NCBI RefSeq assembly: GCF_003312875.1
Contig: NZ_CP015163.1
Span: 4,588,001 to 4,652,000 of the forward strand
Reading direction: 5' to 3'
Source of the DNA: Amycolatopsis albispora
GTDB taxonomy: Bacteria > Actinomycetota > Actinomycetes > Mycobacteriales > Pseudonocardiaceae
Length of the DNA: 64,000 bases
Shown: one piece after another, positions 22,603 to 56,088 of the stretch
Numbering within the stretch: position 1 is the first letter of the stretch
Layout of the letters: each line of letters starts with the position of its first letter
Made by a program: the position numbers and the translations under genes
Notes under the pieces: generated by a model
Seen by the model: the letters and a program-made list of their open reading frames with translations, nothing else
Told to the model about the DNA's origin: nothing
Database searches by the model: none

Positions 22603-22605
22603 GCG

Positions 22606-40303: not shown

Positions 40304-42286
40304 CGCCAGCTCCCTGGCCCGCGCCCGATGGCCCCGAGCCTCCTCCGCGCGGCCGGTGCGTTCCAGCAGACCGGCGAGGACCTGGGCGGTGTGCGCCTCC
40401 CAGGACTTGAGCCCCAATTCCCGTTCCTGGCCAAGGGATTCCCGCAGCAGCCGCTCCGCTTCCGCGAACTGTTCCTCACCGGCCAGCGTCAACGCCTCGC
40501 CGAAGTTGGCCGTCGCCTTCACCCGGTTGTGCAGCTCTGGCCCGTCGGCGAAGAACTCGATGGCCTGACGGCCCACCTCACTCGCTTCGGCGTGCCGTCC
40601 GGCGCGCGCAAGCATCGTCACGCCGTTGAGGCCGATCAGCGCCAGCTCCCTGGCGCGGTGCGCTTCCGGGAAATCCGGGACCAGAATCAGTTCGCGTGCC
40701 TGGAGAATCCGCGTGACCGCCGCCTCGTTCCTGCCGAGCCGTTGGTCCACAAAGGACTGCCACTGCACCGCCTTGGCCCGGGTGAACACCACAACTTCGT
40801 CCCCGGGCAGCTCGGCGGCCAGCGCGGCGGCGGCCTCGAACTCTGCCTCCGCCCGCTCGTTTTCCACCAAGCCGAAGTAGGACATGCCTCGCTGCAACCG
40901 CAGCATCAGCAACGGCCGCGCGTCGCCGGTCGCATCCTTGACGCGCTCCGCGGCGCCCAGGCCGACATCGCAGACTTCCAGGCTCTTACCGTGCAGTTCC
41001 AGTTGGTAGAGATAGGTCGACAAAGCCTCACACAGCTGCCAGCACAGCGAGTCGAGCTCGGTCTCCTCGGCCAGCTCGACCGCGCGAAGCAGATTGGCCT
41101 GCTCCAGCTCCAGATCGGCCACCGCCGCTTGCCACGCTCCGGGACCCGTGTAAGCCGCGGCCACCCGATCGAAGGACTCGCCGAACCGCAGCCGATCACT
41201 CAGCGAACGGGCGCGGGCCACCGCGAACTCCAGGTAGTACCCGACCACGTTCTCCAGCGCCTGCCGCCACTCCGTGTCGTGGTCGTCCGCGGTGAGGCCC
41301 TTGGCGTGGTCCCGCAGCAGGCTGTGCTGCTCGTACCGGCCTTCGTCGACGCGGGTGAGCAGATTGGCCGTCACCAGCGACTCCAGCCTGCGGAGCGAGG
41401 TGTCCTCGTCACGGCCGAACAGCGCCGCCGCGGCCGGGAGCCCGAACCGCGCGCCGGGGTGCAGGCTGAGCAGCCGGTGCGCCTCCTGTGCTTCCGGCGG
41501 CAGGTCCGCGTAACACACGTCGAAAAGCTGGGCGACCAGCAAATCGCTGTCCACCGCCAGCTCCCGCACCAAGGACGGGGCCGCCCGCAGTTCCTCGACG
41601 AAGTCCGCGACGGGCTGGTGCCGCCGCGCCCGCAGGCGCGCGTTCGCCACCCGCAGCGCCAACGGCAGGTGACCGCACAGCTCGGCGAGCACCGGCAGGT
41701 GGTCGGCCGCCGCCGTCAGCCGCTCCCCGGCGAGCTTGGTCGCCAGCAACTCCACCGAACTGGGTGGCGCGAACGGCCGCACCTCCACCACAGTGAAGTC
41801 CTCCAGCTCGAACGCCTCGGCCCACTTGCGGCTGGTGGCCAGCACCAGGCTGTGCGGCGAGTTCGGCAGCAGGTTCTTCAGCTGGGCGGCGGATTCGACG
41901 TCGTCGAGCACCACCAGCAGCTTCCGGTCCGCGGTGAGGTCCTGGTACTCCGCCACCAGGTCGTCCCACGATTCCGGCGGCTTGTCCACGCCGAACCGGC
42001 GCAGGAACCGGCGCAGCACGTCGGCCTGCGACACCGTCTCACCGGACGCACCGAGCGACGCGTACAGGACCCCGTCGGAAAAGCCCTGCCGGATCCGCTC
42101 GGCGAACGCCGCGACGAGCGCTGTCTTGCCCACCCCGGGAATCCCGGTGACCACGATGACCGCCTGGTGACCGCTCCGGCGAGCCTCGACCAGCTCCGCT
42201 TCGAGGCGGCTGAACTCGTCCACGCGGTTCACCACCACCCGCGGCACCGGCAACCTCGCCGCCGGCACCCGGCCCGCACCCGTCAC
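40277..42286 (-). CDS. STAND NTPase (NB-ARC) with TPR-like repeats
   Basis: A 669-residue protein: NB-ARC ATPase with Walker A VTGIPGVGKTALVAAFA near residue 48, Walker B KLLVVLDDVESAAQL near residue 127, and the GLPLAL-like CGHLPLALRVANARL motif; then about 350 residues of helical repeats (EAEFEAAAALAAELPG, AEASEVGRQAIEFFADG, FAEAERLLRESLGQERELG) typical of TPRs. Unlike SARP or LuxR relatives it has no DNA-binding domain, and no effector domain is fused. It may be a signalling scaffold or part of a defence-type system whose partner is missing. GTG 42286 is chosen for GGGGAC upstream; GTG 42346 is the alternative. Confidence 0.82.
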   Translation of the reverse strand: MTGAGRVPAARLPVPRVVVNRVDEFSRLEAELVEARRSGHQAVIVVTGIPGVGKTALVAAFAERIRQGFSDGVLYASLGASGETVSQADVLRRFLRRFGVDKPPESWDDLVAEYQDLTADRKLLVVLDDVESAAQLKNLLPNSPHSLVLATSRKWAEAFELEDFTVVEVRPFAPPSSVELLATKLAGERLTAAADHLPVLAELCGHLPLALRVANARLRARRHQPVADFVEELRAAPSLVRELAVDSDLLVAQLFDVCYADLPPEAQEAHRLLSLHPGARFGLPAAAALFGRDEDTSLRRLESLVTANLLTRVDEGRYEQHSLLRDHAKGLTADDHDTEWRQALENVVGYYLEFAVARARSLSDRLRFGESFDRVAAAYTGPGAWQAAVADLELEQANLLRAVELAEETELDSLCWQLCEALSTYLYQLELHGKSLEVCDVGLGAAERVKDATGDARPLLMLRLQRGMSYFGLVENERAEAEFEAAAALAAELPGDEVVVFTRAKAVQWQSFVDQRLGRNEAAVTRILQARELILVPDFPEAHRARELALIGLNGVTMLARAGRHAEASEVGRQAIEFFADGPELHNRVKATANFGEALTLAGEEQFAEAERLLRESLGQERELGLKSWEAHTAQVLAGLLERTGRAEEARGHRARARELASGQSADDD

Positions 42287-42390
42287 GCTGCGTCCCCCAT
42301 CACCGTCAACCCAGTAACACGCCGCCACTCTACCCAGCACGTCCACCCGAACTCCCCGGCCGACGAGCGGAACGGCGCGCCGTCCGGGTC

Positions 42391-43134
42391 TCAGGTAGGC
42401 AGCCGATCCGCGATGGGAACCCGAACCGCGCCGGCGACCAGAGCCTTGACTTCCGCGGCTGGCACCCCCGGCCCCGGATTGTCGGCGAACCAGCGCCGCA
42501 ACTCGGCCGGGCTCGCCGCGAACGGTGGCTGCGCCGGGAAATACGGCAGCACGTACACCGGCATGCCCGGTTCGCTGCGCCAGCTGTCGGCCAGCGTGCC
42601 GATGTCGACCACGTCGTAGCCGATCCGGTCCAGCAGCTCGGTCACGTCCGCCTTGGCACCGGCGTCGTCACCGGCGATGGGCAGTGCGCTGCGGTCGGCC
42701 GCGCCGGCGGGCCGGACGGCGGTGAGCAGGCTGAGGAAGAACAGGTTGTTGCACGCCTTGACCACCCGTGAGCCCGACAGGTGACGCTGCACCAGTGCAC
42801 TGGAGGTCAGTTCCCCGTTGTCCAGCACGGTGATGTGGCCGTCGCGCCCCGGGTAGTAGTTCATCGTGTCGATCACGGTTTTACCCACCAGCGCGGTGCT
42901 GGGCAGCCGGTCGTAGGCGGACAGCGGGATCGTCGCCACCACGAAGTCACCCGATTGGGCGGCTTCGGCGGGCGTCGCCGCTCGTGCTCGCGGGCCGAGT
43001 TCGGCGACCAGGCCGTCGAGGGTCTCGGGGCCGCGTGAGTTGCTCAGCACGACGTCCAGGCCGGCATCGACGGCAAGGCGGGCCAGCACACCGCCGATCA
43101 TTCCGCTGCCGATCAGTCCGAGGGTGTACGTCAC
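42391..43134 (-). CDS. NADPH-dependent F420-reductase-like / NAD(P)-binding oxidoreductase
   Basis: A 247-residue Rossmann protein (TLGLIGSGMIGGVLARLAVDAGLDVVLSNSRGPETL) of the NADP_F420 group, with DTMNYYPGRDGH and VKACNNLF and a C-terminal helical part. It would reduce or oxidise a substrate with NADPH, or pass hydride to F420. GGAG precedes GTG 43134. It is the last gene of the minus-strand isonitrile cluster, 31 bases after the flavoprotein gene. Its place in the pathway is inferred; it could supply reduced F420 to the LLM enzyme of the cluster. Confidence 0.82.
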   Translation of the reverse strand: MTYTLGLIGSGMIGGVLARLAVDAGLDVVLSNSRGPETLDGLVAELGPRARAATPAEAAQSGDFVVATIPLSAYDRLPSTALVGKTVIDTMNYYPGRDGHITVLDNGELTSSALVQRHLSGSRVVKACNNLFFLSLLTAVRPAGAADRSALPIAGDDAGAKADVTELLDRIGYDVVDIGTLADSWRSEPGMPVYVLPYFPAQPPFAASPAELRRWFADNPGPGVPAAEVKALVAGAVRVPIADRLPT

Positions 43135-43165
43135 GGGTTCTCCACTTCTTCCGGCGAGCCGGTGG

Positions 43166-44311
43166 TCACGCGAACGGGGTCACGGTGTTGGGCACGCCGA
43201 GCAGCGCCGCGCCGTAGATCTCCAGGTTGACCTGCGGCACGAGCATTCCGTGGCGCGCGGCCACGCTGGCGTCCCGCCAGATCCGCTGCACCGGGCTGGC
43301 GTCGGCGAAACCGCTCGAACCGTGGGCGGTCATCAGGGTTTCCAAGGCGCGGTTGATGCTGCGCGACGCCACCGCGGCGTCGGAGCGGTAGCGGGCGCGG
43401 AGCAGTTCCCCGGGGTAGACGGCGTCGGCGGCGTGCTGCTCCAGCGCGCCGGCCGCTCGGTACAGGTGCAGTTCCGCGGTGTCCATGGCCGCGGCCGCCT
43501 CGGCGACCTGGAGCTGGAAGCCGACCGACTCGGCCTGCCTGGCGAAGCTGGTGAACGCGATTCCCTTGTGCGCCGCGGCTTCGACCACATGGGACAGCGC
43601 GGCGCGGCCGAGTCCGAGCTGTGGCGCGGCGACCATCAACACCAGCGTCGGGACCATCGCCGTGCGGTAGGCGGGGGCGACCTCGGGCGTGACGTTCGCG
43701 CCGCCCACCACCGGCCCCAGCGGCAGTACCCGGTGGTCGGGCACAAACGCGTCATCGACCACGAACCGGTTGCTGCCGGTCGACCGCATGCCCGCCATGT
43801 ACCACTCGTCGACGACTTCGAAGTCCTCGCGCGGGACGAGGAAGGCCGCCGGGCCGTCGTCCAGGACGGCGGCGGCGATCGTCCACTCGGCGTGCCAGAT
43901 GCCGGAGGCGTAGCTCCACGCACCGCTGAGCCGGTAGCCGCCGGGCACCTTGCGGACCGGGCCGCTCGGCTTCAGCGCTCCGCTGACCAGCGCATCGGGA
44001 TTGCCGCCCCAGACGTCGTCCTGCGCCTGTTCGGGGAACAGGGCCACGCACCAGTTGTTGCCGTTCCACAGGCCGGTCAGCCAGCCCGCGCTGCCGTCGA
44101 TCGCGGCCACCGCGGCCGCCACGTCGATGTGCGTGCGCAGCGACGCCTCGCCACCGCCGTACCGCTTCGGCACGGCGGCACGGAACAACCCGGCCTCCTG
44201 CATCGCGGCCACGGTCTTGTCGGCCAGCCGCCGTTCGGCGTCGGCCTCGCCGGCGGCCTCGGTCAGCTGCGGGGCAAGGCCGTCGATGGCGGCCATCAGG
44301 TCCTGGCGCAT
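43166..44311 (-). CDS. Acyl-CoA-dehydrogenase-like flavin-dependent monooxygenase
   Basis: A 381-residue protein of the acyl-CoA dehydrogenase fold, group D flavin monooxygenase type (HsaA/HpaB relatives): RYGGGEASLRTHIDVAAAVAAIDGSAGWLTGLWNGNNW, PGGYRLSGAWSYASGIWHAEW, WYMAGMRSTGSNRFVVDDAFVPDHR. The catalytic Glu of true acyl-CoA dehydrogenases is not evident, and the HGSSGFADASPVQRIWRD C-terminus is typical of hydroxylases that use reduced flavin from a partner. AGGAGG lies 7 bases before ATG 44311. The flavin reductase of the same cluster is a likely supplier. It may hydroxylate an aromatic or N-containing intermediate. Confidence 0.83.
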   Translation of the reverse strand: MRQDLMAAIDGLAPQLTEAAGEADAERRLADKTVAAMQEAGLFRAAVPKRYGGGEASLRTHIDVAAAVAAIDGSAGWLTGLWNGNNWCVALFPEQAQDDVWGGNPDALVSGALKPSGPVRKVPGGYRLSGAWSYASGIWHAEWTIAAAVLDDGPAAFLVPREDFEVVDEWYMAGMRSTGSNRFVVDDAFVPDHRVLPLGPVVGGANVTPEVAPAYRTAMVPTLVLMVAAPQLGLGRAALSHVVEAAAHKGIAFTSFARQAESVGFQLQVAEAAAAMDTAELHLYRAAGALEQHAADAVYPGELLRARYRSDAAVASRSINRALETLMTAHGSSGFADASPVQRIWRDASVAARHGMLVPQVNLEIYGAALLGVPNTVTPFA

Positions 44312-44343
44312 CGCGCACCTCCTCTGCTCGGGATGGATCGGGA

Positions 44344-45201
44344 TCAGCGACTGCCGTCGCCGCGTTCGACGGGCACACCGACCAGCGAGCCGTACTCGCC
44401 CCAGGACCCGTCGTAGTTCTTGACATCGGGCCTGCCGAGCAACTCGCTCAGCACGAACCACGTGTGCGCCGAGCGAGCGCCCACCCAGCAGTAGGTGATG
44501 GCTCCGCGTGCCAGGTCCAGCCCGGCGTAGCACCGTTCCAACTCCCGCTCGGACTTGAACGAGCCGTCCTCGTTGAGCACCGCGTCCCATTCCAGGTTCA
44601 CCGCCCCGGGCACATGACCCGCGCGCTGCGCCACCTCGTGCGGGTTGTTGCCCGGAGCGAATGCCTCACCGGCGAACCCGGGGGCGAAGATGCGGCCCGC
44701 ATACTCGTCCGGGGTGCGGACGTCGATCAGTTCCTTGGTGCCGATCGCCGCCAGCACCTCGTCGCGCGTCGCCCGGATGGAGAGGTCGGGGTCCGCGGCC
44801 TGGTAGCTGGTCGCCGGGCGAACCGTCTCTTCGGCGGTGAGCGGGTGGCCGTCGCGCTCCCATTTCTCCCTGCCGCCGTCGAGCAGTTTCACCGCCCGGT
44901 GGCCGTACAGCCGGAAATACCACAGTGCCAGCGCCGCGAGCAGGTTCTTGTTCCCCGAATAGAACACGACGGTGTCGTGGTTGCCGATGCCTTTCCGGCT
45001 CAGCAGCTTTTCGAACGAGCCGCGGTCGATGACACCCAGCCGCAGATCGTCCTGGAACTCGTCCCAGCCGATCCAGACGGCGCCGGGCACGTGCCCCTGA
45101 CGATAGTCGGCGTCGCTGTTCCCGGTTTCCACGAATACCGTTTCCGGGTCGCCGACCTGGCCGGTCGCCCACGCCGCGTCGACGACGGAGTCGTGTTCCA
45201 T
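44344..45201 (-). CDS. sseA: Two-domain rhodanese-type sulfurtransferase
   Basis: A 285-residue thiosulfate or mercaptopyruvate sulfurtransferase. The N-terminal domain (residues 15-120: SDADYRQGHVPGAVWIGWDEFQDDLR, YSGNKNLLAALALWYFRLYGHRAVKLLDGGREKW) is inactive-type; the C-terminal domain has ELIDVRTPDEYAGRI and the active Cys in TYCWVGARSAHTWFVLSEL near residue 236. The CxxGxR loop resembles thiosulfate-using forms. It carries a persulfide and could donate sulfur to an isonitrile or another acceptor, or detoxify cyanide released from isonitriles. It sits inside the isonitrile operon between the exporter and the flavoprotein. Confidence 0.88.
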   Translation of the reverse strand: MEHDSVVDAAWATGQVGDPETVFVETGNSDADYRQGHVPGAVWIGWDEFQDDLRLGVIDRGSFEKLLSRKGIGNHDTVVFYSGNKNLLAALALWYFRLYGHRAVKLLDGGREKWERDGHPLTAEETVRPATSYQAADPDLSIRATRDEVLAAIGTKELIDVRTPDEYAGRIFAPGFAGEAFAPGNNPHEVAQRAGHVPGAVNLEWDAVLNEDGSFKSERELERCYAGLDLARGAITYCWVGARSAHTWFVLSELLGRPDVKNYDGSWGEYGSLVGVPVERGDGSR

Positions 45202-45251
45202 GGACCGCTCCTCTGCGGTTGGCGAAGAAGGTGGAGTTGCTCAGCGGCGCG

Positions 45252-46427
45252 TCACGTAGTTGCCGTGACTTCGGGCTCCGCCGCCGGACGGCGGTCCCGC
45301 TGCCAGGCGAAGAGCGTGACGAGGATGCCGGCGACGGTGACCGCGGCGGCCACCAGATAGACCGGGCGCAGGCCCAGACCACCGTCGATCACCAAGCCGC
45401 CGAGCCACGCCGCGAACGCCACGGCGATCTGGTAGGCGGACGCGTTCACCGCGAGCGCCAAGGTGGGTGCCTGCGCGGCGTTCTTCAGCACGTTCGCCTG
45501 CATGCCGGGAACGATCGAGAAGCCGAGCGCCCCGATGAAGAAGACCAGGATCGCGGTGCCGACGAGGTTCGAGCTGGCCAGCCACATGCCGAGCAGGACC
45601 GCGGTGGTCACCGCGAGCATGCCGATCAGCGACGGCATCAGCGCGCGGTCGGACAGCCAGCCCCCGGCGAGGTTCCCCGCCGTCGCACCGACCCCGTAGG
45701 CCAGCAGCAGGATCGGCACCGCGGCGGTGGAGAACCCGGTGAGGTCGGTCATCAGCGGGGCGAAGTAGGTGAACGCGATCAGCTGGCCCGCGCTGCCGAC
45801 GGCGGTGACCAGGATGGCGAGCTGCACACCGCGCTTGCGGAGCACCTTGAGCTCACCGAACGCCGAGGTCGTCACGTCGTTGGGGACCGACGGCACAAAG
45901 CGCAGCACCAGCAGCAGGCCGACCGCGCAGGTGATCGCGATGGCGACAAAAGTCGCCTCCCACCCGAAGCTGTTGCCGACCCAGGTGCCGAGTGGCGCGC
46001 CGAGAATCATCGCGAGCGTCAGACCGAGGATCAGCTTCGCCACGGTGGACGCCTGCTTCTCCGGCGGCGCGGTGGACGTGGCGATCACGATCGCGTTGGC
46101 GAAGAAAGTCGAAGTCACCGTCGCGGTGATGAAGCGCGCGACGAACAACACGGCGTAAACGGGCGCGAGCGCGGAAACCACGTTTCCGACGATCGCGATC
46201 ACCAGCAGGATCAACAGCAGCCGCTTCCGCGGATATCGGGCGGTGAGCGCGGTCACCAGCGGGCCACCGATGATCATGCCGATGGCGTACGCGGTGACCA
46301 GCAGACCGGCCGAGGAAATGGACACGTCGAGATCGTTGGCGATGTCCGGCAGGATCCCGGCCGGCACGAACTCACCTGTGGTGATGCCGAATACGCACAC
46401 CATGAGGGACAGGACGCTGATGGGCAT
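45252..46427 (-). CDS. MFS exporter of the isonitrile cluster
   Basis: A 391-residue transporter with about 12 helices, of the AraJ/DHA1 drug-export group: GEFVPAGILPDIANDLDVSISSAGLLVTAYAIGMIIGGPLVTALTARYPRKRLL holds motif A near residue 55, and FITATVTSTFFANAIVIATSTAPPEKQA and LGAPLGTWVGNSFGWEATF (antiporter motif C region) follow. It probably exports the cluster product and protects the producer. ATG 46427 is 12 bases from the end of the FAD monooxygenase gene. Confidence 0.9.
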   Translation of the reverse strand: MPISVLSLMVCVFGITTGEFVPAGILPDIANDLDVSISSAGLLVTAYAIGMIIGGPLVTALTARYPRKRLLLILLVIAIVGNVVSALAPVYAVLFVARFITATVTSTFFANAIVIATSTAPPEKQASTVAKLILGLTLAMILGAPLGTWVGNSFGWEATFVAIAITCAVGLLLVLRFVPSVPNDVTTSAFGELKVLRKRGVQLAILVTAVGSAGQLIAFTYFAPLMTDLTGFSTAAVPILLLAYGVGATAGNLAGGWLSDRALMPSLIGMLAVTTAVLLGMWLASSNLVGTAILVFFIGALGFSIVPGMQANVLKNAAQAPTLALAVNASAYQIAVAFAAWLGGLVIDGGLGLRPVYLVAAAVTVAGILVTLFAWQRDRRPAAEPEVTATT

Positions 46428-46439
46428 TTTTCTCTCGAA

Positions 46440-47693
46440 TCAATCGGTTTTGCCGGCGGTTTGCGGTGAACTGGTCAGCTCGGTGCAGCTCTGGACGAAG
46501 GCATCCACCCCTTCCGGACTGGACAGCACGGCCCACATCGCGACCGGGTCGTGGAAGCCGCTGACAAACGCGTCCGCGATCCGCTTGTCCTCCGCCGCGC
46601 GGCCGAACAGCTCGACGACGTGCGGCGGGGGCGGGGCCAGGAACGCGTTGCTCCACTCGACGACGTGCCGCGCGTGCTCCCACAGCCGAGCGGACGCGGC
46701 ACGGCAGAACCCGGCGTCGAGCGGCCCGTTCGCCGAGGCGATGAGCTCGGCCAGCGTGAATGCCGTGTGTGAGCCCAGGTTGGCACCCTGGGCGGTGAGC
46801 GGGTCGTTGGTGATCCAGGCGTCGCCGATGGCCAGCGCGCAGGTCCCGTCGCCGAGCTGGGCCCACTGCCGCCGGACCACCGGAGTGACCCCGCCCTGCG
46901 CCAGTTCACCGGGCGCGACGAGGTCGAACCGCGTGGTGTCGATGCGTTCGCGCAGGCTGGGTGCGTGCTCGGCCACCAGGCGCAACACCTCCCGGCGGAA
47001 ACCGTCCGGATCGGCGTCGGCGTCGAGATGGGCGGGCGGCTCCAGCGGGCCGCCGGGGACCGCCTCGAACGCCAGCACGTGTGCCGGGCCGAGGCGGGAC
47101 AGGAACGGAATCCGCAGGATCTCCCCGATTCCGGGCAGGAAGTACAGATCCAGCGAGTGCGGGACGTCCTCGACGATGCCGTGGTAGAAGCCGCTGCAGA
47201 GAATCCGCTGTGGTGTGGTGTGCGGTGACCGCGCCGGATCCACCGGGAACACCTCGCGCAGGGACCGGTCACCGTTGGCGACGACCACCAGATCGTGCCG
47301 TCCGGCGACCTCCGCCGCGGTGACGGCACCGATCATCACGTCGCCACCGCGGTTGACGAACTCTTCGAACAGGTGCGGGAGGTAGCGGCGGAAGTCCACC
47401 ACGCTCGACGGTGGCGTCAGTGTCGCGGCGAACTCCAGGTCGAGGCCGCCGCCGTTGATGGTGATCGACCAGCTGCGCACCCGGGCGTCGTCGGACTCCC
47501 ACGCCCGCACCCCGAGCGTCTTTTCTCGTTGCTGCGTCGGGCCGAACCGCGCCGGGAAGTTCCGCGGCCGCGCGGTGGCGAGTTCGCCGGGCGTCTGCGC
47601 GGAATACAGCGTCACCGGCACGCCGAGCTGCTGCAGGCGCAGGGCCAGGTGCAGCCCGGCGATCCCGGCGCCGATCACGCCGATGCCGGTCAT
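46440..47693 (-). CDS. Styrene-monooxygenase-type (StyA) FAD epoxidase
   Basis: A 417-residue FAD monooxygenase that follows StyA along its length: IGVIGAGIAGLHLALRLQQLGVPVTLYS (FAD GxGxxG at residues 7-12), SVVDFRRYLPHLFEEFVNRGGDV, ERIDTTRFDLVAPG and IGDAWITNDPLTAQGANLGSHTAFTLAEL. StyA needs reduced FAD from a separate reductase and epoxidises styrene-like alkenes. The ATG overlaps the LLM gene stop (ATGA). In an isonitrile cluster the product of the PvcB-type enzyme is a styryl isonitrile, so alkene epoxidation is an attractive role. That role is inference; the family assignment is firm. Confidence 0.86.
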   Translation of the reverse strand: MTGIGVIGAGIAGLHLALRLQQLGVPVTLYSAQTPGELATARPRNFPARFGPTQQREKTLGVRAWESDDARVRSWSITINGGGLDLEFAATLTPPSSVVDFRRYLPHLFEEFVNRGGDVMIGAVTAAEVAGRHDLVVVANGDRSLREVFPVDPARSPHTTPQRILCSGFYHGIVEDVPHSLDLYFLPGIGEILRIPFLSRLGPAHVLAFEAVPGGPLEPPAHLDADADPDGFRREVLRLVAEHAPSLRERIDTTRFDLVAPGELAQGGVTPVVRRQWAQLGDGTCALAIGDAWITNDPLTAQGANLGSHTAFTLAELIASANGPLDAGFCRAASARLWEHARHVVEWSNAFLAPPPPHVVELFGRAAEDKRIADAFVSGFHDPVAMWAVLSSPEGVDAFVQSCTELTSSPQTAGKTD

Positions 47694-48826
47694 GCGGTCA
47701 CCTGCCGGGCGAAATCGGCCGACCGCACCTCGGCGGCCAGCCAAGCCAGACTGTCCACTGTGTACTCGGCGGCCTGCGGGGAAGCCAGGGCCGAGACCGG
47801 AATCAGCACGGGCAACCGCAGACCGGCGTCGGCCAGTTCGCCGAGCCGGTCGAGCACGGTCTGCCTGCTGCCCACGATCGCCACCTCGGCGACCAGTTCG
47901 TCGGTCACGCGGGACAACGCGTGCTCGACCTCCTCACGGGTCAGCCGATGCGGCAGCAACTGGGACAGCCCCTGGTAGTCGTCGCCGAACGGATGGGAGA
48001 CACCGCATTCGTGCCACTTGGCCGCACCGGCGTGCAGTGCCACGAACCGGATTGCCTTTGTCCTGGCCAGTTCCCGGGCGTCGGCGTCGGTTTCGGCCAC
48101 CACGATCGGCACTCCCCCGGCGGCCACGATCCGATCCGGGTCACGCCCGGCCGCGACGGCGGATTCCCGGACGACCGCCCATTTCCGGGCGTATTCGGCA
48201 GGCGGCATCAGCTCCGGCGGGAGCCAGCCGTCGCCATAACGCCCGGCGAGCGCGGTCATCCGGGGACCACCGCCACCCACCCAGATCTCCGGCACACCAC
48301 CGTCCGGCGCCCGAAGGTCCATGATCGCGTGGTCGAGGGTGAAGAACCGGCCTTCGAAGTCGTACGGGCCCTTGGTGTCGAAGAGCATCCGCAGCAGGCG
48401 CAACGCCTCCTCGACCCGGCCGGCCGGGTGGTCGTGGCCGATGCCGTACGGCTGGAGGTTCTCCAGTGCGCCCGCGCCGATACCGAGCACCGGCGGGCGT
48501 TCGGTGAGCTGGGCCAGGGTCAGCGCCGCCTGGGCCAGCACCGCCGGATGCCGGCGGCGTGGATCGGTGACACCGACCGCGAGTCGCACCGACCCGGCGC
48601 GCGAGGCGAAGTCGCCCAGCACGGTCGCGTATTCGAGCGACTGGTCGGGTGTCGGCAGGCCGGTGGCCAGATAGCTGAAGCCGGCATCCCACGCCTGCCG
48701 CGGGAAGACGTTGATCAGGTGGTCGAACACCAGGAACGTGTCGAACCCGGCGGTCCTGGCCAGCTCGAGCAGGCCGCGCCCGCCGTCGATCGGCCCGACC
48801 GCGTCCCACGCCAAGCCCACCTCCAT
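47690..48826 (-). CDS. LLM class (luciferase-like) oxidoreductase
   Basis: A 378-residue TIM-barrel enzyme of the luciferase-like family: GFDTFLVFDHLINVFPRQAW, VRLAVGVTDPRRRHPAVLAQAALTLAQLTERPPVLGIGAGALENLQPYG, VPEIWVGGGGPRMTALAGRYGDGWLP. The SxRHP-type and GGGGPRM loops bind FMN or F420; the GIGAG segment favours the F420-dependent group but does not prove it. GAGGAG lies 6 bases before ATG 48826; an ATG 33 bases earlier has no site. It lies between the PvcB-type and StyA-type genes. The substrate is unknown. Confidence 0.88.
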   Translation of the reverse strand: MEVGLAWDAVGPIDGGRGLLELARTAGFDTFLVFDHLINVFPRQAWDAGFSYLATGLPTPDQSLEYATVLGDFASRAGSVRLAVGVTDPRRRHPAVLAQAALTLAQLTERPPVLGIGAGALENLQPYGIGHDHPAGRVEEALRLLRMLFDTKGPYDFEGRFFTLDHAIMDLRAPDGGVPEIWVGGGGPRMTALAGRYGDGWLPPELMPPAEYARKWAVVRESAVAAGRDPDRIVAAGGVPIVVAETDADARELARTKAIRFVALHAGAAKWHECGVSHPFGDDYQGLSQLLPHRLTREEVEHALSRVTDELVAEVAIVGSRQTVLDRLGELADAGLRLPVLIPVSALASPQAAEYTVDSLAWLAAEVRSADFARQVTA

Positions 48827-48864
48827 GCCCCGCTCCTCACTCGGTGTCGTGGCTGCCATGGGAC

Positions 48865-49707
48865 TCAGATGACCTCGACCCGCTGGAGATGGCGCTTGGT
48901 CGGCCCGGTGAACGCGTTGCGCCCGTGGATCAGCGAGAAGTTGTCCGCCAGCACGATGTCGCCAGCCCGCCAGTCGTGGTCGTAGCAGTACTCGGGCCGG
49001 TGCACGAGTTCCGCCAGCGTGGTGAGCAGTTCGTCCGCTTCGGACTCGTCGACGCCGTTCACCTTGACGTGGACCGGGTTCTTGTACTTCTCCGGCGCCA
49101 GCGGCTCGGCGAACCGCAGCACGGGCAGCCCGGTCGCGGGGTGCTGGGAGACCAGCCGTTCGGTGATCTCACCGCCGTAGTGCACGACCTTCTCGGTCGA
49201 GTAGGTCATGCTGATCCGGCTCCACCGCTCGCGCAGCTCTTCGTTCACGTCGCGGTAGACCTGCGTGGTGTCGGAGAAAACCGTTTCCCCGCCCACGCCC
49301 GGTGTCGCGTCGAGGCACTGGAACATGAAGTACCGCGGGTTCGCTTCGACAAACGCGCCGTCCCAGTGGAATGGGACGTCACCACTGCCGAAAAGGTAGT
49401 TCTTCGGATTCTCCTGGATGACCAGGTCGATCACTTCCTGGTCATCCCACTTGAGCACCTCGCCCCATTGACGGCAGTAGTCCGCGAATTCCAGCGGGTC
49501 CAGCAGGTCGAACCCGCGCAGGACCAGCACCCGCGACTCCTCCGTCCAGCGGCGGACCATCTCGACCGGGATGTCCTGGATCCTGCCCCGGCCACCGGAT
49601 GCCTGCACCACGCGGCCGAACGGGCGAAGCGGAACGTGCCTGAGCTTGGTGTGCTCGGTGGAACCACAGGGAAAGCTCGGGGCGGAGGGTACTGCCGAAT
49701 TCGTCAT
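48865..49707 (-). CDS. isnB: Isonitrile-associated Fe(II)/2-oxoglutarate oxygenase (PvcB/IsnB family)
   Basis: A 280-residue TauD-fold oxygenase. The iron triad is visible: FHWDGAF near residue 113 (His and Asp) and SLIHGRNAF near residue 262, and the 2-oxoglutarate Arg is in LQRVEV. YMLFGS-like KNYLFGSGDVPFHWDGAFVEANPRYFMFQCLDATPG resembles PvcB rather than taurine dioxygenase. PvcB/IsnB convert an isonitrile amino acid to a vinyl isonitrile by oxidative decarboxylation or form related unsaturated products. ATG 49707 with GGAAGG upstream. A 245-base gap before it may hold a second promoter; the synthase gene is four genes upstream. Confidence 0.86.
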   Translation of the reverse strand: MTNSAVPSAPSFPCGSTEHTKLRHVPLRPFGRVVQASGGRGRIQDIPVEMVRRWTEESRVLVLRGFDLLDPLEFADYCRQWGEVLKWDDQEVIDLVIQENPKNYLFGSGDVPFHWDGAFVEANPRYFMFQCLDATPGVGGETVFSDTTQVYRDVNEELRERWSRISMTYSTEKVVHYGGEITERLVSQHPATGLPVLRFAEPLAPEKYKNPVHVKVNGVDESEADELLTTLAELVHRPEYCYDHDWRAGDIVLADNFSLIHGRNAFTGPTKRHLQRVEVI

Positions 49708-49952
49708 GTGATCGCCTTCCTGCTATTTGCTGCGACGTGAGCGCCCGGAATCACCCGAGCTGGAAATGATTTACGACACGGCTGATCACGTCGGTCGAGA
49801 ATTCGCCTCCCCGGCGACTCCCGTAGAATTTCACATCCGATCGAGCCGACGCAACAACCGAGCCATTGGATAACCGGAGCCGACCGATAAAGAAAACCCT
49901 ATCGATCCCGCGACGGGGTGCCGCGGGCGGGCGAGTCCTCCTTCCGGTGTGT

Positions 49953-50591
49953 TCACGGGCTGGCGTAGACCGGCCGGTGGTGGTCCGGCAGAAGATCGGC
50001 GAGGTGCTCCGTCGCGTTCAGCGCACGGAGGACCGGGTACTTCCCGTCGAAATACACCTCGGACACCGAGGCGTTGTCCGTGTGCAACTGGCTCCGGCGA
50101 TGCTGGGGAACGCCGAGCAGCCGGCAGAGCAGCACCCCGATGAACCCGCCGTGCGTGGACCAGACAACCGTGCCCGGCGGCAGGTTCTCCGCGGCCCGCA
50201 TGGCGCGGTCCGCCAGCGCGGCCACGCTCTCCCCGCCTTCGGGCACAACCCGGTCCGGGCGGGCGCGCCAGGCGTCGAAGGTGGCGGGCTCGCGGGCGCG
50301 GATCTCGCGTGGCGTTCGCCCCTCCCATGCCCCCATGCCCAGTTCACGCAGATCGTCGTCGAGCCGCACACCCAGCCCGTGCGGTGCCGCTATCGCTTCG
50401 GCCGTCGCCACCGCGCGAGCCAGCGGCGAGCTGACGACGTGATCGATCCGCCGATCCGCCAGCCGCCGGGCCAGCGCGGCGACCTGGCAGTCGCCCGGTC
50501 CGGTGAGCGGCACGTCGGCCTGCCCGCTGACCACCCCGCTGGCGTTGTAGGTCGTCTCCCCGTGCCGGACGAGCAGCAGCCTGGTCGCCAT
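49953..50591 (-). CDS. Histidine phosphatase (phosphoglycerate-mutase-like)
   Basis: A 212-residue member of the histidine phosphatase superfamily: LLLVRHGETTYNASGVVSGQADVPLTGPGDCQVAALARRL (RHG motif, phospho-His at residue 10), SSPLARAVATAEAI, LRELGMGAWEG and WSTHGGFIGVLLCRLLG (second His). It starts 2 bases after the flavin reductase stop, so it is in the cluster operon. Isonitrile synthases use ribulose 5-phosphate as the carbon donor; whether this phosphatase acts on sugar phosphates of that reaction or on a phosphorylated intermediate is unknown. Confidence 0.87.
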   Translation of the reverse strand: MATRLLLVRHGETTYNASGVVSGQADVPLTGPGDCQVAALARRLADRRIDHVVSSPLARAVATAEAIAAPHGLGVRLDDDLRELGMGAWEGRTPREIRAREPATFDAWRARPDRVVPEGGESVAALADRAMRAAENLPPGTVVWSTHGGFIGVLLCRLLGVPQHRRSQLHTDNASVSEVYFDGKYPVLRALNATEHLADLLPDHHRPVYASP

Positions 50592-50593
50592 GC

Positions 50594-51067
50594 CTAGGCC
50601 ACCCGGTGGAACGCGCCGCCGAAGAACACCAGCGCCTCCTCGCCCGTACCGCAGTGCGCGCTCAGCACCTGGCCGATGACGATCGAGTGGTCGCCGCCGC
50701 GGTAGGCCTCGACGAGCCGGCATTCCAGCCAGGCCAGCGATCCGGCCAGCAACGGCGCGCCGGTGCGGACACCCGGCGTCCAGCGCACGCCGTCGAACTG
50801 CGCGCGGCCGCTCGGCCTGCTCCGGTCGGCGAAGTACCGGGCGATCGGTTCCTGGTCGGCCTTCAGCACCGACACCGCGAACGAGCCGGCGGACACGATC
50901 GCCGCGTGCATCCGCGCCTTGCGGTTCACGCAGCACAACACGAGCGGCGGTTCGAGCGAGACGGAGCTGAACGCGTTGGCGGTCATGCCGTGGCAGTGCT
51001 CACCGGCCACGGTCAGCACGGTGATCCCGGTGGCGAACCGCGCCATCACCTCGCGCAACCCGGTCAT
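50594..51067 (-). CDS. Flavin reductase (StyB/HpaC-like)
   Basis: A 157-residue flavin:NAD(P)H reductase: REVMARFATGITVLTVAGEHCHGMTANAFSSVSLEPPLVLCCVNRKARMHAAI, FAVSVLKADQEPIARYFADRSRP, and VEAYRGGDHSIVIGQV. The TGIT and GMTANAFSSVSLEPPL segments are diagnostic. It would supply FADH2 or FMNH2 to the StyA-type enzyme and the acyl-CoA-dehydrogenase-like monooxygenase in this operon, since both families depend on a reductase partner. ATG 51067 overlaps the stop of the PLP gene (ATGA). Confidence 0.92.
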   Translation of the reverse strand: MTGLREVMARFATGITVLTVAGEHCHGMTANAFSSVSLEPPLVLCCVNRKARMHAAIVSAGSFAVSVLKADQEPIARYFADRSRPSGRAQFDGVRWTPGVRTGAPLLAGSLAWLECRLVEAYRGGDHSIVIGQVLSAHCGTGEEALVFFGGAFHRVA

Positions 51068-52386
51068 CGCAACTCCGGCACTGGCCGGGGATCGGGCCGC
51101 GGCCGCCAGCCGCCGCCGGTGTCCGCGTATGCCCACTTCGGACCGTTCGACACCAGCTCGCGCAGCCCGTGCACCAGCCGGTCGACGTGCTCGGTGGTGG
51201 TGCCGAGGCCGACGCTCACCCGCACCGCCTGAGCGGCCCCGTCGTGACCACAGCGGTCCAGCAGGAACCGCACGGCCAGATGGGCGCAGAACGCGCCGTC
51301 CCGCACGCCGATGCCGTACTCGGCCGCCAGCGCGGTCGCGACCAGCCGCGGATCGGGCCGGGTCAGGCTGAACGACACCACCCCCGTTCGCGGATGGTCC
51401 TCGTCCCACAACCCGAGCAGCCGCACGCCGGGAACACTCGCGAGACCGTCGCGCACCCGGGCCGTCAGCGCCTGCTCGTGTTCGACCAGCGGGCCCCAGC
51501 CCAGCCTCGTCAGCGTCTCGCACGCACCCGCCATCGCGTGCGCACCGACGACGTTCGGTGAGCCGCCCTCGTGCAGGTGCGGCAGCCCGGTCCAGGTCAC
51601 CGTCTCGGCACCGGCGTCGTCGGCGACCGACTCGGTCGCACCACCGCCGACCAGGTACGGCTCGGCGTCGGCCAGCCAGTCGCCCGACCCGACCAGTGCG
51701 CCCGTCCCGAACGGCGCGTACATCTTGTGGCCGGACACCGCGACCCACGAAAGGCCCCAGCCCGCCTGGTCGATCGGCCGGTGCCCGGCCAGTTGCGCCG
51801 CGTCGAGCACGGTGTGCGCCCCGAACAGCCGCGCCACTTCGGCCAGTTCGGGTATCGGCCACAGCTCGCCGGTGACGTTCGACGCCCCGGTCAGCACCAC
51901 CAGCCGCGGACCGCTGGGCGCGTCGGCCAACGCGCGCGCCAGGCTGCGGACGGCGTTCTCGGGGCTGGCCGGTATGCCGAGCCGGTGCAGCCGGGCGTTC
52001 CGCCACGGCAGCAACGCCGCGTGGTGTTCGGAGGCGAACCGGAACACCTGGGTGCCGGCCGGCAGCGATCGGCCGAGCAGGTTCAGCGCGTCGGTGGTGT
52101 TCCGGGTGAAGATCACCGCGGCGTCGGGCTTCGCGCCGACGAAGGTCCGCACCGAGTCCCGCGCCCGTTCGTACGCCATCGTCGACACCTGCGACGCCAG
52201 CCCCGCCCCTCGATGCACGCTGCTGTACCACGGCAGCAGCCGGTCGATGCCGTCCCGGACGTCCACCAGGCACGGGGTGCTCGCGGCGTAGTCCAGATTG
52301 GCGTACTCGACGTGCCCGCCGGTCACCAGCGGCACCCGCAGGCCGGCGCCGAGCAGGGCCGGGGTGCTTTCGACGGCGACGGTCAC
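51064..52386 (-). CDS. Class V aminotransferase / cysteine-desulfurase-like PLP enzyme
   Basis: A 440-residue fold-type I PLP enzyme related to SufS/Csd: EYANLDYAASTPCLVDVRDGIDRLLPWYSSVHRGAG, FTRNTTDALNLLGRSL, ASEHHAALLPWR, VLDAAQLAGHRPIDQAGWGLSWVAVSGHKMYAPFGTGALVG with the PLP Lys in SGHK near residue 222. A Cys in VRDGAFCAHLAVRFLL sits where desulfurases carry the persulfide Cys. It may mobilise sulfur from cysteine, or act on another amino acid. It starts at GTG 52386 overlapping the isonitrile synthase stop (GTGA), a coupling that ties it to the first step of the pathway. Confidence 0.86.
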   Translation of the reverse strand: MTVAVESTPALLGAGLRVPLVTGGHVEYANLDYAASTPCLVDVRDGIDRLLPWYSSVHRGAGLASQVSTMAYERARDSVRTFVGAKPDAAVIFTRNTTDALNLLGRSLPAGTQVFRFASEHHAALLPWRNARLHRLGIPASPENAVRSLARALADAPSGPRLVVLTGASNVTGELWPIPELAEVARLFGAHTVLDAAQLAGHRPIDQAGWGLSWVAVSGHKMYAPFGTGALVGSGDWLADAEPYLVGGGATESVADDAGAETVTWTGLPHLHEGGSPNVVGAHAMAGACETLTRLGWGPLVEHEQALTARVRDGLASVPGVRLLGLWDEDHPRTGVVSFSLTRPDPRLVATALAAEYGIGVRDGAFCAHLAVRFLLDRCGHDGAAQAVRVSVGLGTTTEHVDRLVHGLRELVSNGPKWAYADTGGGWRPRPDPRPVPELR

Positions 52387-53429
52387 CTGGCCGCCTCCTC
52401 GGGCCTGATGCTGAGGTGCGGGGCGACGAAGTGGCTGGGCCGGTCTTCCCGCCAGACGATGGTCGCGTCGACCCGTTCGGCGTCGGACCGCTTCACCAGC
52501 GACACGGAGCGCCCGTCGTCGAGCGCGACGCCGTGCCACGGCGTCAGCCAGCTGTCCCCGGTCCGCATCAGCTGCAAGCCGAACTTCTCCGAATGCGCGG
52601 GCTGTGGGTGAATGGACAACCGCATCGCGTCGGGAAACTTTTCCGCGACGACCCGGCTCCACGCATTGCTGCGGCGGATGGTGTGATAGGTCCGTTCCTT
52701 GGACTCGGTGCGCAGCTTGGTCCGCGAAACCTCACCACCGTGCACGCCCACCGCGTCCTCGAACAGGAAGCGGTGAATACCATTGAACAGTGAACGCGTT
52801 CCGTCGTCTACGCGAATTTTTTCTTTCAGCTCGGTAACGGTGTCCGAATAGTCGCGTTCCAGGATGTCCCGCAGCACCGGGTAGTTCATCATCCCGAATG
52901 CGTCGTCCAGTCCGTAAATCGCCAACGAGGTCAGGTTTCCGGTTCGGATGATGTTGGCGAGGCTCTCCCGGTAGGCGGTGACCGTGGCGTCGCTGACGCC
53001 GACCACGTCACCGAAGACGTGGCCGTCCGAGCAGATGGTGATCCGTGCGCCAGGCGGGTAGAAGTGGCTGATGTAGTCGCACAGGGACTGCAGGAAGGAC
53101 AGGGCCAGCCGTTCGCTCAGGTCCGGCAGCTCGCCCAGCACCTTGGTGCGGTTGGGAGACTTGGCGGGAAAGGCCGGAATGACGAACTCGATCCGCTCGC
53201 AGTTTTCGACGAATCGATCGATCTTCGTCCGTCGCGCTTCGAAGCAGTCGATGCACGCGCTGTCATCGCCGTCCGGCGAATCGATGATGCGCCGGAACCG
53301 GTAGAGCACTTCCAATACCCGGCGGGCCACATCCGCGTGCGGCAGCGTATCAGTTGATTTGACTTCGGAAATTTCTCTCACCGAGACAGAATCTCCCCAG
53401 TATTGATCATGCGAGCGTTTCGGCACCAA
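52383..53429 (-). CDS. isnA: Isonitrile synthase (PvcA/IsnA/DIT1 family)
   Basis: A 348-residue protein of the isocyanide synthase family, which turns the amine of Tyr or Trp into an isonitrile using ribulose 5-phosphate. IEFVIPAFPAKSPNRTKVLG at residues 79-98 followed by ELPDLSERLALSFLQSLC, ARITICSDGHVFGDVVGVSD near residue 131, NGIHRFLFEDAVG, SRTKLRTESKERTYHTIRRSNAWSRVVAEKFPDAMRLSIHPQP and SWLTPWHGVALDDG are the conserved blocks. GGGGAGG lies 5 bases before GTG 53429. First gene of an operon of tightly spaced minus-strand genes. Tyr versus Trp preference cannot be told from sequence alone. Confidence 0.95.
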   Translation of the reverse strand: MVPKRSHDQYWGDSVSVREISEVKSTDTLPHADVARRVLEVLYRFRRIIDSPDGDDSACIDCFEARRTKIDRFVENCERIEFVIPAFPAKSPNRTKVLGELPDLSERLALSFLQSLCDYISHFYPPGARITICSDGHVFGDVVGVSDATVTAYRESLANIIRTGNLTSLAIYGLDDAFGMMNYPVLRDILERDYSDTVTELKEKIRVDDGTRSLFNGIHRFLFEDAVGVHGGEVSRTKLRTESKERTYHTIRRSNAWSRVVAEKFPDAMRLSIHPQPAHSEKFGLQLMRTGDSWLTPWHGVALDDGRSVSLVKRSDAERVDATIVWREDRPSHFVAPHLSIRPEEAAR

Positions 53430-53603
53430 AGCCTCCCCAGTTCTAGTGCCAGCTGATTTCCCATTATCGCCTGACGCCGGTCGCGATTAGCAAGGAAGGA
53501 TCAATCAGAGTTTGGCGCGATTCGATAGCCGGTCACTTATCGATCGTTTCGCGCATACCACCGGATGGCCCACCCGGCACGCGGCGTTCGCCGAAACGTC
53601 CGG

Positions 53604-54569
53604 TCAGCACTCGATGGGCTGCAGATCCGGCCGGACACCGGCGTCCTGCGTGACCCCGGCGGGCAGGCCCTCGCCGCGCAGTTGCTCGCAGATCTCCTCG
53701 AGCGCCGCGATCTGCGGCCGTTCCCGGTGCGCGGCGGGCCAGACGACGCCGAACGTGCAGTGGGGCAGGTCCACTACCGGCACGTACCGGATGTCCGGGC
53801 GGGGGTAGAGGTCGGCCGCCACGGCCGGGACGAAGGCGATCGCACCGCCGAAGGAGGCCATCGACAGCAGCGACTCGAACCGGGTGACGCGGTGGTCGGT
53901 GTAGCGGACCGGGGAGCCGTCCGGCCGCGGGTCGGCGGCCCAGAACTGCTGGCCGCCCTGGAACATCTGCGACGCCAGGCTGACCACCGGAAGCCCGGCC
54001 AGCTCCGCCAGGGTCACCGACGAGCGCGCCGCCAGCGGGTCCGAGCTGGCGATGCACACCACGCGGGGCTCCGTGGTCAACGGCACCGCGTGCAGGCCGT
54101 CGGGCACCGGCAGGTAGACGAACGCGGCGTCGATCTCGCCGCTGTCCAGCGCGGTGGTCTGCTCGACGAAATCGAGCACGTGGATGTCCGGGCCGAGGCA
54201 GGGGTACAGCGCCCGGTAGGCACCCAGCACACCCCGGGTGGCGGTCAGGGCGGCCACGTTCTCGCACATGCCGACCCGCAGCCGGGACGCGCCGGCCACC
54301 GAGCGGGACGCCGCCGTGCGAAGGTGGTCGGTCGCTTTGACCACCTTCTCGACCAGCGGCAGGAGCGCCTGCCCGGTGGGCGTCAGCTCGACGTGCCTGC
54401 TGGTCCGGGTGAAGAACTGCACGCCGAGGCGCTGTTCCAGCGAATGGATTTGCTGGCTGAGCGCGGGCTGCGTGAGGTAGAGGCGGCTGGCCGCGCGCTT
54501 GAAGTGGAGTTCTTCGGCCAGCGTGAGCAGCATGCGCAGCTGGTGAATCGATGGGTCCTTAGCCGCCAC
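53604..54569 (-). CDS. LysR family regulator of the isonitrile cluster
   Basis: A 321-residue LTTR: HTH at residues 5-65 (IHQLRMLLTLAEELHFKRAASRLYLTQPALSQQIHSLEQRLGVQFFTRTSRHVELTPTG) and a periplasmic-binding-type effector domain (SRLRVGMCENVAALTATRGVLGAYRALYP, VSLASQMFQGGQQFWAADPRPDG). GTG 54569 has GAGGGGG 4 bases upstream. It lies directly upstream of the isonitrile synthase, in the same direction, with a 174-base gap that contains AT-rich sequence suited to a promoter. It is the only regulator in the cluster and probably activates it, perhaps sensing a pathway intermediate. Confidence 0.9.
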   Translation of the reverse strand: MAAKDPSIHQLRMLLTLAEELHFKRAASRLYLTQPALSQQIHSLEQRLGVQFFTRTSRHVELTPTGQALLPLVEKVVKATDHLRTAASRSVAGASRLRVGMCENVAALTATRGVLGAYRALYPCLGPDIHVLDFVEQTTALDSGEIDAAFVYLPVPDGLHAVPLTTEPRVVCIASSDPLAARSSVTLAELAGLPVVSLASQMFQGGQQFWAADPRPDGSPVRYTDHRVTRFESLLSMASFGGAIAFVPAVAADLYPRPDIRYVPVVDLPHCTFGVVWPAAHRERPQIAALEEICEQLRGEGLPAGVTQDAGVRPDLQPIEC

Positions 54570-54949: not shown

Positions 54950-55348
54950 TCACCCCTTTTCGAGCTTGCTGGTGAGCGGAAGCAGCACCAGCGGGATCAC
55001 CACGGCCGCCGTGAGGGCGGCCAGCAGCGGCACGCGTTCGCCGGGCGTGAGGTGGTGCAGCAGTTGGACGTGGATCCCCAGGTGCGGCACGGCGAACACC
55101 AGGTACACGGCGAGCGCCGTACGGGCCATGCTCCGCCGCACAAGGAAAACGCTCACGCCCAGCACCACCGACGTGGCCAGGCTCATCGCGCCGTAGTCCA
55201 TCATCAGGTGCGCGTTGTACGGCATGCGCATCCCCACCCACGGAATGTCGAAGAACGAGCGGGGCGACAACAGCGCCCAGCCGCCCACGGCGAACTGCGC
55301 CACGGCAAGGAAGCCCAGGCCTGCCCGCAGCCAATTGCGGGCACTCAT
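54950..55348 (-). CDS. Four-helix membrane protein
   Basis: A 132-residue integral membrane protein with four predicted helices (LRAGLGFLAVAQFAVGGWALL, HLMMDYGAMSLATSVVLGVSVFLV, MARTALAVYLVFAVPHLGIHV, VPLLAALTAAVVIPLVLLPL). It looks like a small DoxX/DUF4345-type protein but no definitive motif is visible. Its ATG overlaps the stop of the SDR gene (ATGA), so they form one operon. Function unknown. Confidence 0.78.
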   Translation of the reverse strand: MSARNWLRAGLGFLAVAQFAVGGWALLSPRSFFDIPWVGMRMPYNAHLMMDYGAMSLATSVVLGVSVFLVRRSMARTALAVYLVFAVPHLGIHVQLLHHLTPGERVPLLAALTAAVVIPLVLLPLTSKLEKG

Positions 55349-56088
55349 GCGGCGAGGAACTGCTCGAAGGTGATGCGTCCGTCGGCGTGCTCAGGGGTCA
55401 GGTGTCCCCCTTCGCGGTAGCCGCGGATGCCGGCCCCCGGCATCGGCAGCGACACCACCGGCCGGCGGCTGGCACGCGAGCGAGCGTAGGCGCGGGCCAG
55501 CTCGGCGGCGGGGCGCACCTCGGGCCCGCCCATGTCCGGCACCCGGCCGGCCGGTGGCGCGCCGGCCAGCCTGGCCAGGCGGGCGGCGACCTCGCCCGCG
55601 TCGACGGGCTGGAAGCTGACCCCGCTCGGCATCACGATCATCGGCAACCAGCGCTGGCTCGTGCACATCCAGACGATGAGCTCGTGGAACTGGGTCGTGC
55701 GCTGGATCGTCCACGGCAGGGCGGAGCGCTCCACGAGCTGCTCGCAGGCCAGCTTCGCCCGGTAGTAAGCCAGGTCCACCTGCCCGACGCCGACGATGGA
55801 CACGTACACCAGGTGCGGGCGTCCGGCTCGCGCCGCCGCCTGGATGAGGTTGCGCGTACCGGCGATGTCCGCTCGGCCGTTGCCGGTCGCGCAGTGGATG
55901 ATCACGCCGACGCCGTCGACCGCCTGCTCCAGGCCCTCGCCGGTGAGCAGGTCACCGCGCCACGTCCGCTCGTCCGATGGCGGCTTGCGGCTCAGGACGC
56001 GGACGGCATGACCGTCCGACAGAAGCTGCGGCACGAGCGCGCGGCCGAGCCGGCCGGTGCCGCCCGTCACCAGTATCTGGTTCGTCAC
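55345..56088 (-). CDS. SDR / NmrA-like NAD(P)-binding protein
   Basis: A 247-residue atypical short-chain dehydrogenase: ILVTGGTGRLGRALVPQLLSDGHAVRVLSRKP (NADP-type GxxGxxG and following Arg), GVGVIIHCATGNGRADIAGTRNLIQAAARAGRPHLVYVSIVGVG, and YYRAKLACEQLVERSALPWTIQRTTQFHELI. Members act as redox sensors or quinone/ubiquinone-type reductases. GTG 56088 is the start. Its partner is the four-helix membrane protein translated from the same mRNA. Confidence 0.88.
   Translation of the reverse strand: MTNQILVTGGTGRLGRALVPQLLSDGHAVRVLSRKPPSDERTWRGDLLTGEGLEQAVDGVGVIIHCATGNGRADIAGTRNLIQAAARAGRPHLVYVSIVGVGQVDLAYYRAKLACEQLVERSALPWTIQRTTQFHELIVWMCTSQRWLPMIVMPSGVSFQPVDAGEVAARLARLAGAPPAGRVPDMGGPEVRPAAELARAYARSRASRRPVVSLPMPGAGIRGYREGGHLTPEHADGRITFEQFLAA

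Follow-up and report, generated by a model that had tools for sequence, protein, structure and literature searches.

A conserved actinomycete isonitrile gene cluster with StyA-family and rhodanese genes and a predicted isothiocyanate-derived product

The bacterial gene clusters for paerucumarin (PvcA/PvcB) and rhabduscin (IsnA/IsnB) have PvcA and PvcB-type enzymes in common with the cluster described here, and to our knowledge lack rhodanese, desulfurase, StyA and luciferase-like (LLM) genes. We know of one worked-out system in which a rhodanese makes a bacterial isothiocyanate, that of the glycoside sinapigladioside from Burkholderia gladioli, in whose pathway an isonitrile synthase presumably takes part. 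In the excerpted text of PMC12112954 (2025), citing Dose 2021 and Mlotek 2024, the Burkholderia rhodanese is described as turning an isonitrile into the isothiocyanate sinapigladioside. Here we analyze a 64,000-nucleotide stretch of the Amycolatopsis albispora chromosome (the window; positions 4588001-4652000 of a single 9.12-Mb contig), in which profile matches and an open reading frame (ORF) list place all genes of an isonitrile cluster on the minus strand at 42391-54569. We propose for this cluster the same succession of isonitrile formation and rhodanese sulfur transfer to an isothiocyanate, to which it adds genes for a StyA, an HsaA/XiaF-like enzyme, an LLM enzyme, a flavin reductase and a desulfurase.

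The cluster is real and conserved, and its combination of enzymes is undescribed in the open literature searched. StyA searches of 390 genomes of the family, 394 of the class and 343 of the genus of Streptomyces vilmorinianum (G1058) led to its closest relatives. Four clusters, those of the window, Kutzneria sp. 744 (G577), S. vilmorinianum and Streptomyces sp. NBC_00335 (G1136), form a type A that shares eleven genes: lysR, pvcA, desulfurase, flavin reductase, pvcB, LLM, styA, MFS, rhodanese, HsaA/XiaF-like and PF03807. With identities of 59-83%, the eleven orthologues remain grouped in each of the three other genomes, and four arrangements are seen in all, indicating that their association is not due to chance. 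Type B comprises five clusters (G065, Nocardia alba, G1237, G1350 and G524), all with pvcA, pvcB, a second StyA, LLM, StyA, cupin and MFS genes; lysR is present in four of the five, rhodanese and a second LLM gene in three each, and desulfurase in two (G065 and G1237). G1350 diverges more in pvcA (51%) and pvcB (43%), which are ~6 kb away from its StyA block and on the opposite strand; it shares a short-chain dehydrogenase gene with G1237 and N. alba, to which G065 shows a short match. Among ORFs of at least 100 amino acids, after exclusion of previously matched stretches, which included the phosphatase, no additional gene was shared by three type-A pieces save a shadow ORF antisense to the G577 LLM gene; our in-house gene caller, which overlooked the flavin reductase among other real genes, was used as an aid only. 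Of 397 genomes of the order, 39 have PvcA matches at E up to 0.001, covering at least 249 residues in 14 (the window's own included); in the genus 8 of 80 genomes have a match, and identity exceeds 45% only in the window's own genome. Within the genus the cluster is thus rare, with a patchy distribution. A scan of genome contigs yielded 27 PvcA loci. We found no description of this gene set in the open PMC literature, which is weak evidence of absence, and DfmD, taken up as a possible published match, was rejected because it belongs to dehydrofosmidomycin. The unfamiliarity of the combination, remarked on in a sequence-only reading that preceded this work, is supported.

Inspection of the two core enzymes also supports that reading's interpretation of an isonitrile synthase with PvcB-type tailoring, and both of its family assignments, PvcA/IsnA and PvcB/IsnB, were borne out. 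The PF05141 alignment in PvcA spans positions 1-268 of 273, and the CSDG, IHPQ and LTPWH stretches are kept in the window's PvcA and in the other cluster rows aligned; the near-full-length DIT1_PvcA match together with these stretches marks the protein as a predicted PvcA/IsnA isonitrile synthase. Besides Pseudomonas PvcA it matches two more distinct solved sequences, and its 268 bits fall below the cut-off of 600 of the Tyr-specific NCBIfam family. In the excerpted literature we found no residue rule that would tell Tyr from Trp as the substrate. The best solved relatives of the PvcB-type oxygenase are PIsnB (7TCL, 177 bits) and PvcB (3EAT, 159 bits). Its HWD and IHGR motifs align with H101, D103 and H250, given as the metal ligands of PIsnB in the excerpted PMC9467999, so that the HxD...H ligand set is present. 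According to the same excerpts (Kim et al. 2022), K/R at position 107 with N/H at 188 denotes a vinyl isonitrile product (PIsnB type) and L107 with C188 an isocyanoacrylate (PvcB type), although single changes at these positions do not switch the product and further residues matter. The window's enzyme has Val at the K107 position and Ala at that of N188, a signature of neither class that sets it apart from the paerucumarin and rhabduscin systems and recurs in all seven rhodanese-positive, StyA-bearing clusters; whether CO2 is lost is consequently not predictable by this rule.

The rhodanese of the cluster carries a distinctive catalytic loop. Its closest solved relative is 3AAX, a putative thiosulfate sulfurtransferase (321 bits) that we take to be of the mycobacterial CysA type; the catalytic Cys is present, and the loop around it reads CWVGARS rather than CRIGERS. 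A protein search scored 8000 candidates, of which 7489 passed 1e-60, and among the best 120 of these 7489 the Cys-Trp (CW) loop is found in all of the first 50 (at least 64% identity) and in none of the next 70, which have CR in 69 cases and CG in one. Across 11 genomes with 24 rhodanese matches, CW occurs in nine of nine copies beside pvcA and in none of the 15 others (CR in 11, SR in two, the loop pattern undetected in two). Every one of these genomes also has a CR-type copy, and the cluster rhodanese forms a separate clade. Three of 295 genomes of the genus of S. vilmorinianum hold a match at E 1e-100, each inside the cluster, a count that is not independent because the draw overlaps the 343-genome StyA search. 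Seven of the nine clusters with both PvcA and StyA have the rhodanese, as do two short pvcA-pvcB loci in Nocardia. We infer that the change to CW suits an organic isonitrile; a clade of its own with a readable loop motif would allow isothiocyanate clusters to be separated from plain isonitrile clusters by sequence. The two short loci, in Nocardia aurea and N. amikacinitolerans (L040:12645-13499 and L042:12710-13564), show the same Cys-Trp loop and no StyA match, and are perhaps a minimal isothiocyanate cluster.

The GAFCAH, GHKMY and EHHA motifs of the desulfurase align with SufS and correspond to the catalytic Cys on the C-terminal loop, the pyridoxal phosphate Lys and the His, all kept in six of six cluster copies; the score against NCBIfam SufS (231 bits) is under the cut-off of 475. 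The gene is found in six of the seven rhodanese-positive, StyA-bearing clusters and in neither of the two rhodanese-negative ones, and a desulfurase-to-rhodanese sulfur relay is possible.

Among the oxidoreductases, the StyA protein shares fold and family with styrene and indole monooxygenases (3IHM, VpIndA1 and 9J0H). A structure model from a 29-sequence alignment reached a pLDDT (model confidence) of 93, compared with 39 from one sequence; the G1136 StyA, whose frame was flagged with a stop, was omitted from the alignment and its pocket covered separately as P0132. The pocket residues are N-P-R-V-W-S in the window and N-V-H-Y-H-S in the solved styrene monooxygenase 3IHM. The earlier designation as a StyA-type epoxidase thus holds at family level, while the enzyme departs in its pocket from a true styrene monooxygenase. 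A protein titled styrene monooxygenase StyA from S. vilmorinianum (9J0H) is 80-82% identical to cluster StyA; the StyA copy in the S. vilmorinianum genome sits in a type-A cluster, a likely natural context for an enzyme solved under that name, and the title of 9J0H names no isonitrile role. The crystallised protein has Cys in the pocket where the genome copy (P0123) has Trp, which we read as another strain or an engineered variant. The HsaA/XiaF-like enzyme is of the same family as the XiaF and HsaA flavin hydroxylases (243-252 bits), missing the HsaA cut-off, but sits in an isonitrile cluster. The LLM protein falls under the cut-off in all 25 of its best NCBIfam families, the nearest of which are F420-dependent. 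The nearest solved structures to the PF03807 protein are 4HUJ and STEAP3, and it lies so far from NpdG that F420 chemistry is only suggested. The cluster offers flavin enzymes with altered pockets.

Taken together, enzyme families, co-conservation, kept catalytic residues and cluster-specific motifs lead us to consider it reasonably probable that the cluster makes an oxidised isothiocyanate, or a ring closed from one, derived from an aromatic amino acid; an isothiocyanate pathway is predicted because rhodanese conversion of an isonitrile has been reported for sinapigladioside. In the pathway we propose, PvcA would convert Tyr or Trp, at its amino group, to an isonitrile with ribulose 5-phosphate, and the PvcB-type oxygenase would desaturate this isonitrile with CO2 lost or kept. 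Cysteine would supply sulfur to the SufS-like enzyme, which may in turn charge the rhodanese; the Cys-persulfide of the rhodanese would hand the sulfur to the isonitrile carbon, and R-N=C=S would result. Oxygen would be put on the alkene, the ring or both by StyA and the HsaA/XiaF-like oxygenase, using reduced flavin from the flavin reductase, which probably serves the flavin monooxygenases of the cluster; the LLM enzyme would carry out one more redox step, for which the PF03807 oxidoreductase perhaps provides the reducing equivalents, and the MFS and LysR proteins would act in export and regulation. An isothiocyanate, or a compound formed from one, is thus the probable end product, a consequence the sequence-only reading did not draw, and a search for the isonitrile band alone could therefore miss it. 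A bolder version, which is possible though on balance doubtful, has a dedicated relay from the cysteine desulfurase to a re-tooled Cys-Trp rhodanese making aromatic vinyl isothiocyanates in actinomycetes, a re-pocketed StyA-family oxygenase oxidising the N-vinyl bond, and ring closure to a sulfur heterocycle, an oxazole-2-thione or oxazolidine-2-thione for example. If true, relay and ring closure would constitute a new route and a new class of natural products.

Several observations weigh against an isothiocyanate pathway of this kind. Most PvcA loci lack a rhodanese, which is present in 3 of the 27 genome-contig loci, 1 of 13 order-sample pieces and 0 of 9 Burkholderia pieces, and its role could be detoxification or self-resistance. 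The desulfurase is absent from the fetched pieces of three of the nine rhodanese-positive loci (Nocardia alba, L040 and L042), whose genomes hold relatives at 50-52% elsewhere. In five genomes, desulfurase relatives at 50-60% that are not near pvcA, and that may serve other purposes, likewise retain the Cys, making this residue a family trait rather than a cluster-specific one. The sulfur donor in the sinapigladioside work is thiosulfate, as cited in the excerpted PMC12112954, so that a desulfurase relay is not required; the cluster family would directly test whether cysteine-derived sulfur can replace thiosulfate. StyA relatives at 47-56% occur without pvcA in seven of seven fetched pieces (G668, G630, G1352, G1115, G1371, G1354 and G1318), and StyA alone is thus no marker of the pathway. 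The clusters are moreover few and related, such that their co-occurrence is not independent evidence.

The Burkholderia pieces come from the genus of G1390, in which PvcA is found at E 1e-20 in 10 of 65 genomes; nine pieces were taken from eight of these ten (one being L049 again), and the other two genomes are those of L051 and L052. No rhodanese was found by tblastn in the nine pieces, a sample outside which the sinapigladioside cluster may lie, and in four such genomes the rhodaneses are only distantly related (31-32%) and located away from pvcA. Pieces L211 and L212 each contain two PvcA-like stretches.

An alternative that we judge unlikely is an oxidised vinyl isonitrile as end product, with rhodanese and desulfurase serving only for self-protection, in that cyanide or isonitrile that leaks out is captured as (iso)thiocyanate. 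Rhodaneses scavenge cyanide (PMC12112954, in excerpt), and the sister clusters G1350 and G524, which retain PvcA, PvcB, LLM, StyA and MFS, have neither rhodanese nor desulfurase, their genomes holding one rhodanese match each (E 1e-30) of the ordinary CR type. The cluster rhodanese, however, is a clade apart from the CR-type copy present in each of the 11 genomes, and its altered catalytic loop would not obviously be needed for general cyanide removal. Quite improbable, in our estimation, is that the sulfur lands elsewhere, the desulfurase-rhodanese pair giving a thiol, a thioamide or a thiocarbamate, for instance through attack on a StyA-generated epoxide: the cluster does hold an epoxidase-family flavin enzyme, and epoxides and persulfides react readily, yet the known precedent is sulfur transfer onto an isonitrile, and the StyA pocket is unlike that of 3IHM. 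It is very improbable, and already largely refuted by the joint presence of the eleven genes in four genomes and four arrangements with pvcB always on the LLM-styA side, that the PvcA half and the remainder are unrelated operons adjoining by chance, even though the pvcA and desulfurase trees, in placing the window and Kutzneria with type-B G065 and not with the Streptomyces type-A clusters, point to partly different histories.

Those two trees join the window and Kutzneria to G065 with supports of 0.956 and 0.919, whereas the two Streptomyces, together with the window and Kutzneria, form a group separate from all others in the pvcB, MFS and rhodanese trees (0.983, 0.999 and 0.996). The trees are small, with some rows missing, and hint at exchange between parts of the cluster. 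In the rhodanese-less type-B clusters G1350 and G524, a related flavoprotein (L158:4775-6652 and L139:13508-15292, 62% identical to each other) adjoins pvcB; the G1350 copy matches the tryptophan-halogenase family, which suggests a halogenated isonitrile branch.

Table 1. Genes at 42391-54569 of the window, from the highest coordinates to the lowest.
Gene or product	Position	Strand	Remarks
lysR, LysR-family regulator	53604..54569	-	GTG start; HTH_1 and LysR_substrate; orthologues 71-76% in type A; in 4/4 type-A clusters
pvcA, predicted isonitrile synthase	52383..53429	-	TTG start, GTG at 53381 possible; PF05141 (DIT1_PvcA) 252.6 bits; solved PvcA 3E59 245 bits
SufS-like cysteine desulfurase (aminotransferase V)	51064..52386	-	PF00266 231.6 bits; 5J8Q 160 bits; overlaps pvcA by 4 nt
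NAD(P)H:flavin reductase, HpaC/StyB-like	50594..51067	-	PF01613 153 bits; StyB 107.5 bits, under cut-off 200
Histidine phosphatase	49953..50591	-	PF00300 (His_Phos_1) 192.5 bits
pvcB/isnB-type iron/2-oxoglutarate oxygenase	48865..49707	-	TauD 161.8 bits; 7TCL and 3EAT matches
LLM oxidoreductase	47690..48859	-	PF00296 163 bits; 8QPL 70 bits
StyA-family flavin monooxygenase	46440..47693	-	pocket N-P-R-V-W-S
MFS exporter, Cmx/AraJ-like	45252..46427	-	PF07690 159 bits; Cmx/CmrA 301 bits, under cut-off 400
Two-domain rhodanese	44344..45201	-	active loop YCWVGARS; proposed isonitrile sulfurtransferase
Acyl-CoA-dehydrogenase-fold flavin monooxygenase, HsaA/XiaF-like	43166..44311	-	HsaA 252 bits, under cut-off 450; XiaF 5LVU 243 bits
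NADP-binding oxidoreductase, F420-oxidoreductase Pfam family	42391..43134	-	PF03807 57.5 bits; NpdG 23 bits, cut-off 149.8

Every tailoring gene listed in the sequence-only reading, together with the MFS and LysR genes, is real and lies on the one strand (Table 1); the PF03807 gene, a member of the cluster, had been left unnamed. Several mechanical ORFs reach further upstream than the likely start, which we placed at 51067 for the flavin reductase, 52386 for the desulfurase, 44311 for the HsaA/XiaF-like gene and 47693 for styA. From pvcA to the PF03807 gene the junctions measure, in order, -4, -4, 2, 245, 5, -4, 12, 50, 32 and 31 nucleotides (nt). The claim that overlapping starts and stops tie most of the genes together thus holds in part, with 4-nt overlaps at three junctions, six others being spaced 2-50 nt apart, with gaps of 245 nt between phosphatase and pvcB and 174 nt between lysR and pvcA. 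The histidine phosphatase, also counted in the cluster by that reading, is present but not a conserved part: tblastn against the remaining type-A pieces gave no match (at E 1e-10 in G577 and G1058 and at E 1e-8 in G1136), for which reason we dropped it as a member, and it probably sits inside the cluster yet outside the pathway. An NB-ARC/AAA-type gene at 40277-42346 and the genes at 54950-56088 were likewise rejected as members, having no counterpart in the other type-A pieces.

An IS4-type transposase gene (59348-60544) lies ~5 kb upstream of lysR and is compatible with horizontal arrival of the region. Elsewhere in the window, at 20412-25684, a D-2-hydroxyacid dehydrogenase gene (24692-25684) stands beside a gene of the D-Ala-D-Ala-ligase family (23662-24753), with a sensor kinase gene at 20412-21542; the dehydrogenase/ligase pair (23662-25684) presumably resembles the vanHA-type pair of glycopeptide-related actinomycetes. 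In 13 order-sample genomes (L016 and L019-L030), a PvcA-like segment of ~70-100 residues lies within an open frame of 1127-1231 amino acids, possibly representing a fused or larger synthase family.

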